A stretch of 64,000 bases of DNA from Avibacterium volantium (lineage in GTDB: Bacteria; Pseudomonadota; Gammaproteobacteria; Enterobacterales; Pasteurellaceae), in NCBI RefSeq assembly GCF_900635775.1, contig NZ_LR134167.1:405001-469000 (forward strand), given 5' to 3'. Of this stretch, positions 10,992-20,141 are shown piece after piece (positions within the stretch are counted from its first letter, which is position 1; every line of letters starts with the position of its first letter). Position numbers and translations under genes: made by a program. The notes under the pieces are model-generated. The model was not told the origin of the DNA. It did no database searches and worked only from the letters and a program-made list of their open reading frames with translations.

Positions 10992-11030
10992 TCAGAAAAA
11001 GAGAATAGTTTTTTAGCAAGTTTGTGTGAT

Positions 11031-11052
11031 TTTTGCGGAATAGATCACAAAA
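11031..11052. promoter_or_regulatory. candidate CRP site, half canonical and half CRP-S-like
   Basis: The core reads TGCGG-N6-TCACA inside matching A/T flanks. One half equals the canonical CRP half-site. The other begins TGCG, as in Pasteurellaceae CRP-S (Sxy-dependent) sites. The position, about 230 bp upstream of the fucI start, fits catabolite control of fucose use. Confidence 0.45.
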
Positions 11053-11074
11053 AATGACCGTTTATAGCAAAATA

Positions 11075-11117
11075 AAATGCCCGATTTAACATTTGATTAT
11101 TAAATCGGGCATTTTTT
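11075..11117 (-). terminator. fucR terminator
   Basis: Long stem AATGCCCGATTTAA / TTAAATCGGGCATT, A/T-rich on both sides, lying just after the fucR stop in the minus direction. It should separate fucR transcription from the fucI promoter. Confidence 0.75.
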
Positions 11118-11131
11118 ACTTTAAAGAGCGG

Positions 11132-11881
11132 TCAAAAAGCGAGATGAATTTCTTGTTCTTTACAATAATTTTGTAAACTTTCATTCGGTGCTTGATCGGT
11201 GAATAAAATGTCTAACTGAGAAAGCTCACCTAATTTTATAAGATTTTTACGCTCAAATTTAGAGCTATCCAATAATAAGAATTTCTGCGCAGACGCATCA
11301 ATTAATTTGCGTTTGATGGACGCATTTAGTTCATTAGACTCCCAAATTGCCCCACTGCTGTCCACCCCAGTACAAGAAAAAACACATAAATCAATATGCA
11401 AACGAAGCAAAAGCTGCTCCGAAAGTGGGCCATAAAAAGCGGCATATTTTGCTGAATAAACACCGCCTGTGGCAATGGTTGTAACATTAGGTTTATTAAC
11501 TAACGCATTGATATTATGCATAGAATTGGTAACAACGGTGCAAGGAATATCAGGAATCAGCTGCGCAAAGTGCCAGCTACTGGAACTCGCATCTAAGCCG
11601 ATTACCGCACCCTCAAACACATAATCCACCACCTGCTGCGCTATATACTTTTTCGCTTCAGAATTTAAACGTTGTCTTGCTTGAAATGAGCGGCCAATAT
11701 CCTTTGATTGGCTACTCATTGCACCTCCGTGTACTCGATGTAATAAGCCTTTTTGATTTAATGCTCGCAAATCTCGGCGAATGGTTTCCACCGACACACC
11801 AAACTGCTGAGCAAGCTCATTAACATTCACTTTCCCTACTGAATTGACAAGCTGTAAAATTTGCGACGTTCTTGTTGGCAT
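11132..11881 (-). CDS. fucR: L-fucose operon regulator, DeoR family
   Basis: 249-aa transcriptional regulator. An N-terminal DeoR helix-turn-helix (about residues 5-57, with VNELAQQFGVSVETIRRDLR) is followed by a sugar-phosphate sensor domain typical of DeoR C-terminal domains (GLDASSSSWHFAQ, LDSSKF). The position directly upstream of fucI, as in H. influenzae, identifies the target operon; the effector is probably fuculose 1-phosphate by analogy with E. coli FucR. It starts 42 nt after deoC and may share a transcript with it. Confidence 0.88.
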   Translation of the reverse strand: MPTRTSQILQLVNSVGKVNVNELAQQFGVSVETIRRDLRALNQKGLLHRVHGGAMSSQSKDIGRSFQARQRLNSEAKKYIAQQVVDYVFEGAVIGLDASSSSWHFAQLIPDIPCTVVTNSMHNINALVNKPNVTTIATGGVYSAKYAAFYGPLSEQLLLRLHIDLCVFSCTGVDSSGAIWESNELNASIKRKLIDASAQKFLLLDSSKFERKNLIKLGELSQLDILFTDQAPNESLQNYCKEQEIHLAF

Positions 11882-11923
11882 TATTCCTCCAAACGGTCAA
11901 AACAGTCATTCGGGCATTATAAA

Positions 11924-12613
11924 TTAATACCCATTCCCCTGCGCATTCGTTCCTTTCACAATAGCAACGCCAGCGCTTACGCCTAGACGGGTTGCGCCAG
12001 CATTGAGCATTGCTAGTGCGGTGGCGGTGTCGCGGATGCCGCCTGAGGCTTTTACTTCCACCTTGTCGCCGACGGTTTGCTTCATCAATGCAACGTCTTC
12101 AACCGTTGCGCCGCCGGTGCTAAAACCTGTGGAAGTTTTAACAAATGCCACCTTGAGCGCTTTGCAGATTTCGCAAGCCTTGACGATTTCTTCTTTGGTT
12201 AGTAGGCAGGTTTCTAAAATCACTTTTAAGGTTTTGCCTTGGCAAGCCGCAAGCACGGTGGCAATATCTTGTTCCACCGCTTGCCATTGATGGGCTTTGG
12301 CAAGGCCAATGTTGATCACCATATCAATTTCATCAGCCCCCGCATTAATGGCTTGCTCCGCTTCAAAGGCTTTCACTTGGCTTAAATTTGCCCCTAAGGG
12401 AAAGCCAACAACGGTGCAAATTTTCACCGCACTTTTCTCTTTGCCATTTTGTGTGAGTGCCTGCTTAGCCAGTGGAATATAGGCGGAGTTTATGCACACG
12501 GAACAAAATTGGTGTTCAATCGCTTCTTGGCATAAGTTAAGAATATCTTGTGGGGTTTTATCTGCGCCAAGGGCGGTGTGGTCAATGTATTTGGCAATAT
12601 CTTGTGGTTGCAT
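11924..12613 (-). CDS. deoC: deoxyribose-phosphate aldolase
   Basis: Class I aldolase splitting 2-deoxyribose 5-phosphate into glyceraldehyde 3-phosphate and acetaldehyde during deoxynucleoside catabolism. The Schiff-base lysine lies in FVKTSTGF at about residue 159. The second catalytic lysine is in [11 protein letters not shown]. The 229-aa length fits the short bacterial DeoC subfamily. The ATG has an AAGGA ribosome-binding site. It is upstream of fucR; no other deo genes are in the window. Confidence 0.95.
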
Positions 12614-12749
12614 TGTTTGTCCTTAATCTTGTCTGGATTTGTGCTATATCATAACCTAAAAGCGGTGGTGAGCGCGAAATTTCTTTAGCCCTTATGCGTA
12701 AAATCCTTTAGAATAAACAGCAATATTGAAATCAAATGAGGATTGAAAA

Positions 12750-13673
12750 ATGATTATTGTAACTGGCGGCGCAGGCTTTATTGGCAGTAACATCGTAAAA
12801 GCGTTAAACGAGATTGGACGCACAGATATTTTAGTGGTGGACGATTTAAAAGACGGCACAAAATTCGTCAATTTAGTGGATTTGGATATTGCGGATTATT
12901 GCGATAAAGACGACTTTATTGCCTCCATTATGGCAGGCGATGATTTAGGCGAGATTGATGTGATCTTCCACGAGGGGGCGTGTTCCGCCACCACGGAATG
13001 GGACGGTAAATTTGTAATGGAAAACAATTATGAATATTCCAAAGAGTTATTACATTATTGTTTAGATCGCCAAATTCCTTTCTATTACGCCTCCAGCGCT
13101 GCCACCTACGGCGACAGCGATACCTTTGTAGAAGCGCGTGAGTTTGAAAAACCGTTGAACGTGTATGGCTACTCAAAATTCTTGTTCGATGAATATGTGC
13201 GTAAAATTTTACCTGAGGCACAATCGCCCGTCTGCGGTTTCAAATATTTCAATGTGTATGGGCCAAGAGAGCAGCACAAAGGTAGTATGGCGAGCGTGGC
13301 ATTCCACCTCAACAATCAAATTTTGAAAGGGGAAAACCCAAAACTGTTCGCAGGTAGCGAGCATTTCTTGCGTGATTTCGTTTATGTCGGCGATGTGGCA
13401 GCGGTAAATATCTGGTGCTGGCAACAGGGCATTTCGGGCATTTACAACTGCGGAACGGGCAAAGCGGAAAGTTTTGAAGCCGTGGCTCAAGCTGTCCTAA
13501 AATTCCACGGCAAAGGGCAAATTGAAACGATCCCCTTCCCAGAACATTTAAAAAGCCGTTACCAAGAATACACCCAAGCGGATTTAACCAAACTGCGCGC
13601 CACGGGCTATGACAAGCCATTTAAAAGCGTTGCCGAAGGTGTCAGCGAATATATGGCGTGGTTGAATAAATAA
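12750..13673 (+). CDS. hldD: ADP-L-glycero-D-manno-heptose 6-epimerase
   Basis: Converts ADP-D-glycero-D-manno-heptose to the L-glycero form used by heptosyltransferases for the LPS inner core. This is an extended short-chain dehydrogenase: the NADP-binding GGAGFIGSN is at 6-14 and the catalytic YxxxK as YGYSK at 139-143. Length is 307 aa (E. coli 310). A GAGGA ribosome-binding site precedes the ATG. In enterics hldD, waaF and waaC are adjacent; here the same order is kept but a repeat array of about 575 bp separates hldD from waaF. Confidence 0.97.
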
Positions 13674-13698
13674 CATAACTACGCAATTAAATCAGATG

Positions 13699-13843
13699 TA
13701 GGGGCGAACCTATGTGTTCGCCCAAAATAACAGGATTAGTCGTAAAAATTAGCAAAATTTTCACCGCACTTTTATTTTTAGCCAAATAAGTGTGGTGGGA
13801 AAAGCATGATTTTGATTGGGCGGACACATAGGTCCGCCCCTAC
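13699..13843 (+). mobile_element. USS-carrying MITE-like element, copy 1
   Basis: A 145-bp element bounded by roughly 25-bp inverted repeats, each itself a hairpin (GGGCGAAC ... GTTCGCCC at the left, GGGCGGAC ... GTCCGCCC at the right). Both ends read TA. The core holds an inverted USS pair: ACCGCACTT at 13763-13771 is intact and the partner reads AAGTGTGGT. It has no coding capacity. Copies lie at 13911, 14123 and (inverted) 17363. Confidence 0.7.
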
Positions 13844-13910
13844 GATATGAAATTATTTCGTGATTAAACAAATAATTTTGACTATTTTTGTAGATAAATA
13901 TAGCAAATTG

Positions 13911-14054
13911 TAGGGGCGAACCTGCGTGTTTGCCCAAAATAACAGGATTAGTCGTAAAAAATTAGCAAAATTTCCACCGCACTTTTATTTTTAGCCAAAT
14001 AAGTGTGGGGAAAAGCGTAATTTTTGATTGGGCGGACACATAGGTCCGCCCCTA
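13911..14054 (+). mobile_element. USS-carrying MITE-like element, copy 2
   Basis: Second copy, 144 bp. The left hairpin differs slightly (CCTGCGTGTTTGCCC). The left USS arm ACCGCACTT at 13976-13984 is intact and the right arm is mutated to AAGTGTGGG. The terminal TA is kept at both ends. Confidence 0.7.
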
Positions 14055-14122
14055 CGATATGAAATTATTTCGTGATTAAACAAATAATTTTGACCATTTT
14101 TGCAGATAAACATAGCAAATTG

Positions 14123-14272
14123 TAGGGGCGAACCTATGTGTTCGCCCGAAATAACAGGATTAGTCGTAAAAATTAGCAAAAACTTCACCGTACTTTTCTT
14201 TTTAGCTAAATATAAGTGCGGTTGGAAATTGGCGATTTTTGAGTGAGTGAGCGAACATAGCGTTCCCCCGAC
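14123..14272 (+). mobile_element. USS-carrying MITE-like element, copy 3 (degenerate)
   Basis: Third copy. The left terminal hairpin is intact; the right terminal hairpin has decayed (GCGAACATAGCGTTCCCCC at 14250-14268). Here the left USS arm is mutated (ACCGTACTT) and the right arm is intact (AAGTGCGGT at 14214-14222), the reverse of copies 1 and 2. A TATAAT at 14279-14284, just outside, may serve as -10 for waaF. Confidence 0.6.
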
Positions 14273-14308
14273 AATTGATATAATTCACACATTAATGAGA
14301 ACCGCAGA

Positions 14309-15364
14309 ATGAACATCTTAGTAATTGGCCCATCTTGGGTTGGCGATATGATGATGTCGCACAGTTTATATCAATGCTTAAAACAGCAATATCCTGATTG
14401 CCAAATTGATGTGCTTGCGCCAAATTGGTGTAAACCCTTGTTGGAAAGAATGCCGGAAGTTAGAGGGGCGCTCACAATGCCCATCGGACACGGCACCTTT
14501 GGCTTGAAACAGCGCTATGAAATTGGGAAAAGCCTAAGACATCAATATGATATGGCGATTGTATTGCCAAACTCGCTCAAATCTGCGTTTATTCCTGTGT
14601 TTGCCAAAATTGCCCGCCGCCGTGGTTGGAAAGGGGAAAGCCGTTATTTCTTTTTGAATGATTTACGCACCAATAAAAATGATTACCCAATGATGGTGCA
14701 GCGCTATGTGGCATTGGCTTATGAAAAAAACGCTGTGCCAACGGCAGCACAAATGACCTTTCCTTACCCTTATTTACAGGTGAGTAGCCAACAAATCGAG
14801 CAAACCAAAAACCATTTCCACGCACAACTTGCACAGGCAGAAAATCGCTCTGCGATTGGTTTTTGTCCGGGCGCGGAGTTTGGCCCTGCCAAGCGCTGGC
14901 CGCATTATCATTATGCTGCGCTTGCTCAAATGCTGATTGAAAAAGGTTACAGCATTCGCCTGTTTGGTTCAGCAAAAGATGAACAAGTGGGTGATGAAAT
15001 TCGTGCCAGTCTGCCAGAAAATTTACAGCCGTACTGCTTAAATTTAGCGGGGCAAACCAGCCTTAATCAAGCGGTAGATTTAATCGCAGATTGCCAAGGC
15101 GTGGTTACCAACGATAGCGGATTAATGCACGTTGCGGCGGCGGTGCAGCGTCCGCTTGTAGCGCTTTATGGCCCAACTAGCCCGCAATACACGCCACCAT
15201 TATCCCATCACGCGGTGATTATTCGCCTACAAAAAGGCGGATTAGAAAAAATTCGTCATGGCAAAGACAGCGCCGAAGGCTATCATCAAAGTCTTATCGA
15301 CATCACGCCTGCGATGGTAATGGAAAAATTAAGCGAAATTTTACCGCACTTTGATCTGGCATAA
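14309..15364 (+). CDS. waaF: ADP-heptose:LPS heptosyltransferase II
   Basis: GT9 enzyme (351 aa) that adds the second heptose to the LPS inner core at the inner membrane. The N-terminus ILVIGPSWVGDMMMSHSLY is diagnostic for WaaF, as is VTNDSGLMHVAAAVQRP near residues 268-284 for donor binding. Length and order (hldD, waaF, waaC) match the enteric cluster. waaC begins 13 nt downstream, so they are co-transcribed. A USS (ACCGCACTT) is embedded near the 3' end. Confidence 0.95.
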   Translation: MNILVIGPSWVGDMMMSHSLYQCLKQQYPDCQIDVLAPNWCKPLLERMPEVRGALTMPIGHGTFGLKQRYEIGKSLRHQYDMAIVLPNSLKSAFIPVFAKIARRRGWKGESRYFFLNDLRTNKNDYPMMVQRYVALAYEKNAVPTAAQMTFPYPYLQVSSQQIEQTKNHFHAQLAQAENRSAIGFCPGAEFGPAKRWPHYHYAALAQMLIEKGYSIRLFGSAKDEQVGDEIRASLPENLQPYCLNLAGQTSLNQAVDLIADCQGVVTNDSGLMHVAAAVQRPLVALYGPTSPQYTPPLSHHAVIIRLQKGGLEKIRHGKDSAEGYHQSLIDITPAMVMEKLSEILPHFDLA

Positions 15365-15377
15365 ATAAGGCAGCACG

Positions 15378-17339
<1,962 letters not shown>

Positions 17340-17362
17340 TACTGTATTGGCGTATTATCTCG

Positions 17363-17496
17363 TAGGGGCGGACTGATGTGTCCGCCCATTTAAAATCGCG
17401 GTTTATTTTATTAAAAATAAAAGTGCGGTGAAATTTTGCCAGTTTTTCCTGCGATTAATTCTGTCCATTTTGGGCGAACACATAGGTTCGCCCCTA
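17363..17496 (-). mobile_element. USS-carrying MITE-like element, copy 4 (inverted)
   Basis: A 134-bp copy in the opposite orientation to the array at 13699. Read on the minus strand it aligns end to end with copy 1: same terminal hairpins (GGGCGAAC ... GTTCGCCC), same CAGGATT-like and A/T core, same TA ends. It retains one USS (AAGTGCGGT at 17421-17429). It lies in the anmK-murQ spacer. Confidence 0.7.
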
Positions 17497-17560
17497 AGAA
17501 AATTATTCTTTATAAAATAATATGTTACAGTTATTTTTGGGTTCTAACCCTATTTATTAT

Positions 17561-18682
17561 TCAACAATCCTTAGGATAAATCACCCCTAAACTCACCGCC
17601 TTTGTTGCGCCGGTAACGCTAGGTTCGTTGGAGGGTAAATTTTCCATTCGGCGGTAAGCTAACCACGCGAAGGCGGCGGCTTCTAAATAATCTGTGTCTA
17701 AGCCGTAATCTGTGGTGGTGGCGATTTGCCAATCGGGCAGTAAACGTTGCAAGTGAGCCATAATAACAGGGTTTTTCGCGCCGCCGCCGCAGACTAATAA
17801 TAAACAAGGAAGCGTGTTGTGTTGGCTTAAATGTTGCAGATCTTGCGCAGTGCATTGTGCGGTAAATTCTGCTAGCGTTGCTTGCACATCTTGAGGGGAA
17901 AGTGCGGTGTGTTTTTGCAGAATTTTTTCTAGCCACGCCAAGTTAAATAATTCTCGCCCAGTGCTTTTCGGGGCAGGCAAGGAAAAATAAGGATCTGCCA
18001 GCAAATCTTGCAACAACGCAGGATTACTTCGCCCAGACGCTGCCCATTTGCCATTTTTATCATAGCTTTTCCCTTGATGTTTGGCGATCCAACTATCTAG
18101 CAACGCATTGCCCACGCCGGTGTCGTAACCTAGCACGGGCTGGTTTGGGATCAGCACAGAAATATTGCTAATCCCACCAATATTCAGCACCACGGTATTT
18201 CGCGTAGGATCAGCAAACACATTGTGGTGGAATGCAGGCACGAGTGGCGCGCCCTGTCCGCCATAAGCCATATCTTTACGGCGAAAATCAGCCACGGTAG
18301 TAATACCTGTGCGGGCAGCAATAATATTGGCATCGCCTAATTGCCAAGTAAAGGGCGATTGCCCTTGCGGTGCGTGCCAAATGGTTTGTCCGTGGCAGCC
18401 TACTGCCTGAATTTGTTCCGTTTTAAGAGAATGTTTCGCCAAAAATTGGTTGATGCTTTCTGTATAAAGTACGCCAAGTTGATGATCTAGTTCGCCAATT
18501 TGCTGTAACGAGCCTTGCCCTTGCTGGCAAAGTGCGGTGATATTTTGGCGCAAATTTTGTGGCATTGGCACAAAATCCGTGGCGACCACTTGCGCAGGCT
18601 GAGTGGAAAAATCCATTAGCGCGAGATCCACGCCGTCAAGGCTCGTGCCAGACATCACGCCAAGGTAATAATGGGATTGCAT
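17561..18682 (-). CDS. anmK: anhydro-N-acetylmuramic acid kinase
   Basis: Phosphorylates and hydrolyses 1,6-anhydro-MurNAc to MurNAc 6-phosphate, feeding MurQ. The N-terminal [15 protein letters not shown] at about residues 8-22 is the ATP-binding signature, and the C-terminal [11 protein letters not shown] is the second nucleotide-binding loop. At 373 aa it is close to E. coli AnmK (369). The ATG at 18682 has GGAA at a good distance; an in-frame ATG at 18694 is possible. anmK followed by murQ makes a two-gene recycling unit. Confidence 0.95.
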
Positions 18683-18770
18683 AAACATTTCCATAGAAAA
18701 TTTGAATTGGCGATATTCTATTATAAAATAGCGCAGATTTTTATCTTAAACCGACAGAACAAGGATTTTT

Positions 18771-20141
18771 ATGAAAAATTTAAGCGTAGTGATTTTGGCT
18801 GCAGGCAAAGGCACAAGAATGTATTCCGATTTGCCAAAAGTGTTACATAAAGTTGCAGGCAAGCCAATGGTGAAGCACGTTATTGATACAGCAAAACAGC
18901 TCAATGCCGATAATATTCATTTAATTTATGGCCACGGCGCAGAATTATTACAACAACACCTTGCCGATGAAAATGTAAACTGGGTGCTACAACCTGTGCA
19001 ACTTGGTACAGGACACGCAATGCAACAGGCCGCGCCATTTTTCGCTGATGATGAAAATATCGTAATGCTTTATGGTGATGCTCCACTTATCACCGCGCAA
19101 ACCTTGCAAAAACTGATTGATGCTAAACCAGAAAACGGTATTGCCTTATTGACTGCGCATTTGGACGATCCAACAGGCTACGGACGGATTATTCGTCAAG
19201 ATGGCAATGTGGTTGCCATTGTCGAGCAAAAAGATGCCACGCCAGAACAATTAGCCATTCAAGAAGTGAATACAGGCGTAATGGTTTCCAGTGGTGCGAG
19301 TTTTAGAAAATGGCTAGCAAAATTGGATAACAACAATGCGCAAGGCGAATATTATATGACCGATGTGATTAAATTTGCCAACCAAGACGGCTGCAAAGTG
19401 GCTGCTGTGCAAGCGCAAGATTTAATGGAAGTGGAAGGCGCAAATAACCGCTTACAACTGGCTGAGCTTGAGCGTTATTATCAACGTAAACAAGCGGAAA
19501 AATTATTGCTAGCGGGCGTGAGTTTGCGTGATCCCAGCCGCTTCGATCTGCGTGGCGAAATCCTTCACGGTAAAGATGTGGAAATTGATGTGAATGTGAT
19601 TATTGAAGGCAACGTGAAGCTGGGCGATCGAGTTAAAATTGGTGCAGGTTGCATTATCAAAGATTGCGTGATTGGCGATGATGTGGAAATCAAACCTTAT
19701 TCCGTGTTTGAAGATGCCGTGATTGGCGAACAAGCTCAAATCGGGCCTTTCTCACGCCTTCGCCCAGGTACAGAACTTGCCGCACAAACCCATATCGGCA
19801 ACTTCGTTGAAGTGAAGAAATCACACATCGGCAAAGGCTCGAAAGTGAACCACCTCAGCTATGTGGGCGATAGCGAAATTGGCGCAAATTGTAATATCGG
19901 CGCAGGTACTATCACTTGTAACTATGACGGCGTAAACAAATTCAAAACCGTGATTGGTGATGATGTGTTCGTGGGTTCAGACAGCCAACTGGTAGCCCCA
20001 GTAACCATCGCCAAAGGCGCAACCATCGGCGCTGGCACAACCGTTACCAAAGATATTGCAGAAAACGAACTAGTGATCTCACGCGTTCCACAACGTAATA
20101 TCCAAGGCTGGAAACGCCCAGAAAAACTCGAGAAAAAATAA
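18771..20141 (+). CDS. glmU: bifunctional UDP-GlcNAc pyrophosphorylase / GlcN-1-P acetyltransferase
   Basis: Makes UDP-GlcNAc for peptidoglycan and LPS in two steps. The N-terminal uridyltransferase domain (about 1-228) has [18 protein letters not shown]. The C-terminal left-handed beta-helix (about 250-440) is full of hexapeptide repeats and carries the acetyltransferase site. Length is 456 aa, equal to E. coli GlmU. An AAGGA ribosome-binding site lies upstream. It is divergent from anmK by 88 nt. Confidence 0.98.

Follow-up and report, generated by a model that had tools for sequence, protein, structure and literature searches.

A probable tandem REPIN cluster with uptake signal sequences in its cores, located between hldD and waaF of Avibacterium volantium

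The short repeat that fills the gap between hldD and waaF in Avibacterium volantium is, with high confidence, an ordered cluster of REPINs, whose REPs are probably RAYT substrates and whose core uptake signal sequences (USSs) are passengers. The window, i.e., the whole 64,000-nucleotide stretch that was analysed (G000:C1:405001-469000), belongs to a single-contig genome of 2.23 Mb, termed G000 here and compared with six others of the genus (G001 to G006). The three units of the array and a fourth, more distant copy all lie outside the ORFs listed for the window, and a search of the whole window with Rfam at the gathering threshold returned two matches, both to rRNA, and none in the array. A repeat that carried no label is now assigned to a REP/RAYT pair, and tandem REPIN clusters are shown in a naturally competent genus.

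Architecture of the array and of the fourth copy

The array is preceded by hldD (12750-13673) and followed by waaF (14309-15364) and waaC (15378-16328). The initial annotation described three copies at a 212-bp spacing, and this is precisely what is seen: the units start at 13697, 13909 and 14121 (212 + 212 bp), the unit being made up of a 26-bp REP, a core of 94 bp (approximately 95), a second, inverted 26-bp REP and a 66-bp spacer, with TGTAG at its start and CTACG at its end. In the REP itself, GTAG stands at the foot of a hairpin whose stem has 8 bp and whose loop has 6 bases (GTAG-GGGCGAACCTATGTGTTCGCCC); this REP defines what is called here family B (GTAGGGGCGnACC...). In unit 1, the left-arm REP (13698..13723, + strand), with its GTAG and 8-bp stem hairpin, is followed by the core (13724..13817, +), which contains a strong extended USS at 13763-13771, read on the - strand, and a weak half-site AAGTGTGGT at 13788-13796, and then by the right-arm REP (13818..13843, -); spacer 1 (13844..13909, +) repeats along with the unit and is missing in species with a single copy. 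Unit 2 has the same layout, comprising the left REP (13910..13935, +), the core (13936..14029, +) with a USS at 13976-13984 and a decayed partner, the right REP (14030..14055, -) and spacer 2 (14056..14121, +). Unit 3 begins with a left REP (14122..14147, +) and continues into a core with a decayed right end (14148..14272, +), in which the left USS is mutated (14187-14195) and the right one, AAGTGCGGT, is intact (14214-14222). No right REP is recognisable in unit 3 at 5 mismatches, and this unit is therefore not full length.

Copy 4 (17362-17497) lies 3.1 kb beyond the array, in the gap between murQ (16325-17242, - strand) and anmK (17561-18694, -), which is followed by glmU (18771-20141). It was initially annotated as a fourth, full-length copy in inverted orientation, and stands as an inverted relative of the same kind with two REPs and 77% identity to unit 1. 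Its first REP (17362..17387, +) is followed by a core (17388..17471, -) with one extended USS (17421-17429) and by a second REP (17472..17497, -), in which the first base of GTAG is changed. A REPIN of a different family, A (GTAGGGTGGGCTTTAGCCCACC), adjoins it at 17277..17339.

When folded as single-stranded DNA, copies 1, 2 and 4 surpass all 200 dinucleotide shuffles (z -8.8, -5.8 and -5.4), and copy 3 folds weakly (z -2.2, with 5 of 200 shuffles as good). An inverted REP pair that can fold as one hairpin, the hallmark of a REPIN, is thus present in units 1 and 2 and in copy 4 and absent from unit 3, and a GTAG-type tetranucleotide stands at the foot of the palindrome. The hairpin-forming terminal inverted repeats ending in TA of the initial annotation are hairpins indeed, although each end is a complete GTAG-footed hairpin in its own right, the right one of unit 3 being decayed.

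This architecture has close parallels. As in the REPINs of Pseudomonas fluorescens SBW25, an inverted REP doublet forms a long hairpin, and the ordered tandem clusters including flanking DNA that are described there (Bertels and Rainey 2011, PMC3116915) comprise one that adjoins a RAYT gene, as REP arrays do here in G001; the Avibacterium elements differ from those SBW25 REPINs in their REP sequence, a longer core with an extended USS, a far lower copy number and the lack of a detectable cognate RAYT in G000. The GTAG REP superfamily (Di Nocera et al. 2013, PMC3733652) likewise combines a GTAG foot with a stem-loop, forms head-head dimers, and has singletons and dimers clustered in tandem with flanking DNA; the main text of that paper contains none of the terms Pasteurell, Haemophilus, Avibacterium and Aggregatibacter. 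REPINs carrying uptake signals appeared in none of the titles or abstract beginnings among the matches listed in our literature searches.

REP family B and its RAYT partners

In G000, the REP pattern yields 30 matches at up to 3 mismatches, compared with 2 for the reversed control; they are dispersed over the genome, and many form inverted pairs. With no more than 1 mismatch allowed, the REP was found in 24 of the 140 Pasteurellaceae genomes, representing 10 of 43 genera, the control giving 0 in every row listed. Among 20 stretches from other genera, picked on REP matches, 18 contain inverted pairs (19 pairs in total) with cores of 16-44 bp. For the genus itself, 57 REPINs were collected from 59 loci, chosen among the matches listed for REP or RAYT matches or for the hldD region, and thus do not represent whole genomes; REP calling allowed up to 5 mismatches and the core types were grouped at 60% identity, so that a few of the pairs kept in the counts (e.g., L134, L138 and L158) may be due to chance or nesting. 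The cores with a USS measure 83-101 bp, compared with 40 bp for the commonest core of the genus (18 copies). In the genus loci examined, 18 tandem REP arrays with periods of 62-249 bp were reported, a count that excludes two L179 rows from another genus and in which the finder missed the two-copy hldD gap of G001 and L159.

With a 149-bp query at E <= 1e-9, the hldD-type composite was retrieved from 7 of 140 family genomes, all of one genus, one G005 match spanning the USS stretch only; a single neighbourhood of about 8 kb accounts for every hldD-type core detected. A search of a contig collection with the exact pattern REP-(28-58 bp)-ACCGCACTT gave 3 stretches in 2 genomes, both Avibacterium; this pattern overlooks changed copies and the other USS orientation, and near relatives of the window were perhaps left out of the collection. 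In L062 (about 1490-1535) and L063 (about 1700-2115), inverted pairs of a USS-like variant, AAAGAGCGGT / ACCGCTCTTT, adjoin or separate REPINs; this variant is one base off the USS core and occurs alone or opposite a true USS.

A gene flanked by REP B was found in two genomes, and in both it is a RAYT (REP-associated tyrosine transposase, with single-strand Y1/HUH chemistry, whose studied relatives cut REP hairpins in single-stranded DNA), of which the family B REPs are probably substrates. The G001 protein (165 aa, Pfam Y1_Tnp) scores 81.7 bits against NCBIfam NF047646, with a cut-off of 80, and its gene has arrays of REP B on both sides; the protein of G099, which belongs to another genus, is 60% identical, has the same flanking REP and, at 68.1 bits, remains under that cut-off. 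Within the seven genus genomes, the cognate RAYT is restricted to G001: at 1e-10 there was no match in G000, G002, G003, G004 or G006, and the G005 match is 44% identical and neighbours a hairpin different from REP B. Relatives of the G001 RAYT were detected in 50 of 140 family genomes and 23 of 43 genera; at least one GTAG- or GGAG-footed hairpin lies within approximately 600 bp of 22 of the 25 relatives examined (GTAGGG type in 21), and most of these hairpins diverge from REP B along with the divergence of the protein. At the Pasteurellaceae loci L101-L125, the RAYT and its flanking REP hairpin vary together between genera, and these loci offer a ready data set on REP/RAYT co-evolution in the family.

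The one RAYT of G000 (P0001, 178.9 bits, G000:C1:1731734-1732084, L061) is flanked by the family A REP. Its frame is open, one REPIN of two REPs stands on each side in L061, and the same layout recurs in G005 (L083) and, close to a contig end, in G004 (L084). REP/RAYT pairs from the same bacterial family are already in print for H. influenzae Rd and H. parasuis (PMC2817692), the H. influenzae Rd REP, GTAGGGTGGGCTT(c/t)AGCCCACC, being identical to the family A REP of the window; unlike these, the family B REP is absent from the passage of that paper on the Haemophilus pairs. A RayT is also reported in Lonepinella (PMC7583611), and the TnpA-REP proteins of E. coli, S. maltophilia and Marinomonas have been shown to cut REPs (PMC8266576).

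Uptake signals in the REPIN cores

The USS of A. paragallinarum, ACCGCACTT, is reported at 1,537-1,641 copies per genome and boosts plasmid transformation in that species (PMC10269479). The window contains 46 exact USSs, and its four copies show the states initially read from them: ACCGCACTT is kept in copies 1 and 2, with AAGTGTGGT and AAGTGTGGG on the opposite sides; copy 3 has ACCGTACTT on the left and an intact AAGTGCGGT on the right; and copy 4 has one intact USS. The further proposal that every copy retains exactly one USS applies to all four copies of the window and not to the congeners, since the 22 copies of the hldD/murQ/glmU type have one USS in 17 cases, two in 3 and none in 2. The 17 copies with exactly one compare with 16.1 expected from independence (Fisher p 0.47), a test that is only indicative, since the copies are related by descent and the events not independent; non-random retention of one USS per copy is not apparent.

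What does stand out is an asymmetry between the two sides, the left USS being intact in 19 of the 22 copies and the right half-site in 4. This asymmetry is readily explained by the A/T-rich flanks of a full USS, which surround the left motif and are lacking around the right one: against a reference of 42 other USSs of the window (mean 12.5, sd 3.8), which is also the set used to build the matrix, the flank scores of copies 1-4 are 15.9, 18.2, 11.9 and 12.1 on the left and -4.0, -13.0, 5.0 and -1.8 on the right, the left site of copy 3 (11.9) having one core mismatch. Conservation of the left USS is 0.985, a value reached by 3 of 84 nine-column windows (8 of 86 among hldD copies alone), and that of the right motif is 0.803, compared with 0.801 for the rest of the core. 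The core USS is best regarded as a passenger, an extended signal of the sort scattered in the intergenic DNA of the genus, of which the left one would be kept by whatever uptake bias or drive maintains USSs elsewhere and the weak opposite half-site would drift. The array provides a natural comparison on USS maintenance, since each of 22 related copies sets a strong USS, which is retained, beside a weak one, which drifts.

The intergenic DNA outside REPINs contains 14 USSs in 5,526 bp (2.53/kb), a rough background estimated from this window alone after crude masking of ORFs. An exact USS is present in the core of 18 of the 57 genus REPINs, a figure tilted towards USSs because the hldD region was fetched deliberately, and in none of the 19 from other genera; within G000, 3 of 8 REPINs have one. 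By location, a USS is found in 14 of the 15 REPINs of the hldD-glmU neighbourhood and in 4 of the 42 from other places in the genus. When counted by core type, 2 of 12 types have a USS, compared with 1.8 expected from the intergenic density (Poisson P 0.54), as do 2 of the 5 long types, compared with 1.2 (P 0.34). On these small numbers, there is no demonstrable excess of USSs in REPIN cores. One of the two types is that of hldD/murQ/glmU; the other, unrelated to it, has a 99-bp core and occurs as a tandem REPIN array in G005 and G004 (L142 1-830, L159), 4 of its 5 cores having a USS. A role for the USS as driver of tandem amplification was considered and rejected, since only 7 of the 18 tandem REP arrays have a USS and 11 do not, so that tandem amplification needs none.

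A stronger claim, namely that the long-core REPINs of Avibacterium captured extended USSs twice independently and that these stayed the best-conserved stretch of the core while the elements dispersed and amplified in tandem, is unlikely; if it were true, USS-bearing REPIN arrays would be dense uptake and recombination islands that aid their own exchange between species. Equally open to doubt, and slightly less probable, is the initial proposal of a self-tagged mobile element, in which the core USS is an adaptation that lets the element pass from cell to cell by natural transformation. In its favour, a full extended USS occupies one side of the core, its flanks scoring around the window mean or above, this USS is among the most conserved nine columns of the core, the 99-bp type supplies a second, unrelated case, and the USS raises plasmid transformation in A. 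paragallinarum. The conservation of the left USS leans in this direction, yet genome-wide maintenance of USSs would give the same result. The proposal had itself been tied to a USS in most copies, and it does not hold on that measure, given that 39 of the 57 genus REPINs and all 19 from other genera lack an exact one; moreover, USS-bearing core types are as frequent as the intergenic density predicts, the hldD-type core was seen only in its neighbourhood of about 8 kb, and the neighbouring DNA, at 2.5 USSs per kb, already provides uptake signals.

There is very little probability that the core is mainly a USS-pair transcription terminator that REPs bracket by chance. USS pairs are reported to function as part of terminators and to favour the +/- order, less markedly so in Pasteurellaceae (PMC1852404), and in each of units 1-3 two USS-like motifs face each other and could pair in the same way. 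Unlike the terminators described there, however, the array has the -/+ order, its + strand stem is followed by GGAAAAGC or similar without a T-run, and one arm is usually decayed, 19 of the 22 copies having at least one arm that departs from an exact USS. A terminator scan of 13600-14400 gave 0 sites, with loops restricted to 3-8 bases and hence blind to the longer-looped hairpin of the array; it is from the pair order and the missing T-run that a terminator is judged unlikely.

Filled and empty sites and the mode of movement

Turning back to the REPIN cluster as such, its copy number between hldD and waaF varies across seven species from 1 (G002, G003, G004 and G006) through 2 (G001) and 3 (G000) to 4 (G005), and might serve as a typing marker ahead of waaF; no empty site was found there among the seven genus genomes, each of which has at least one copy. 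At most of the genes compared, the two genomes farthest from the window are G001 and G006. G001 has its two-copy arrangement and spacer in common with G000 and G005, and G006 has a single copy; either loss from a multi-copy ancestor or repeated gain may therefore explain the history of the site.

Differences between filled and empty sites, expected by the initial annotation for a non-autonomous miniature element, do exist between species at two other places. The murQ/anmK gap has one copy in G000, G004 and G005, three in G001 and none in G002 and G003; a different insertion occupies the G003 gap, and the empty site is too diverged to define a junction. In G006, no REP B is present in the 3.9 kb beyond the start of murQ and anmK was not found there either, so that its gap is not comparable. 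On the 3' side of glmU, in a comparison of five genomes, three units are present in G001, the site is empty in G000 and G005, and the flanks differ in G002 and G003. The G001 block (L077:2800-3600) consists of three 244-bp units with AAAAGCGA at both edges, and the empty site of G000 and G005 has AAAAGTGA once. Because the edges fall in the spacer at AAAAGCGA, away from the REP foot, this block was probably not moved by RAYT cutting; its junctions suggest that a circular or tandem intermediate, perhaps, was inserted through microhomology. A further REPIN locus is shorter in G003, where 199 bp between two direct REPs are absent and the two matches share 31 bp at the junction, as expected from REP-REP recombination; the stretch missing from G002 at this locus is somewhat different. 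At L064, the flanks are too rearranged in relatives for a filled/empty comparison.

That the unit is a MITE moved by a DDE transposase inserting at TA has a negligible probability, since the TA at both unit ends (TGTAG...CTACG) is part of the GTAG foot and is seen also in partnerless REPs and one-way REP arrays, which a two-ended MITE does not predict, since the clearest empty site (glmU) gives no sign of insertion at TA, its filled/empty comparison revealing no duplicated TA around the element with a single TA at the empty site, and since the gene flanked by REP B is a RAYT. The TA-targeting transposase of the initial annotation thus gives way to GTAG-tagged REPs at the ends and, in G001 and G099, a RAYT as the flanked gene. 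The element is still mobile or once was, and a RAYT is the most likely agent; movement is deduced from genome comparison alone, with no excision or insertion event seen. RAYT-driven movement would accordingly lie in the past, and in present-day G000, where no cognate RAYT is detectable, whole units would most likely be gained or lost when direct REP copies recombine or slip against one another.

A recombination breakpoint at the array was also considered and rejected, because sliding identity reveals mosaicism nearby with breakpoints elsewhere. Within window positions 11000-13500, G004 and G006 share two genes upstream of hldD (97% and 92% mutual identity, compared with 76-86% to the rest), and in hldD itself, at about 13000-13500, G000 groups with G003 and G006 against G002, G004 and G005.
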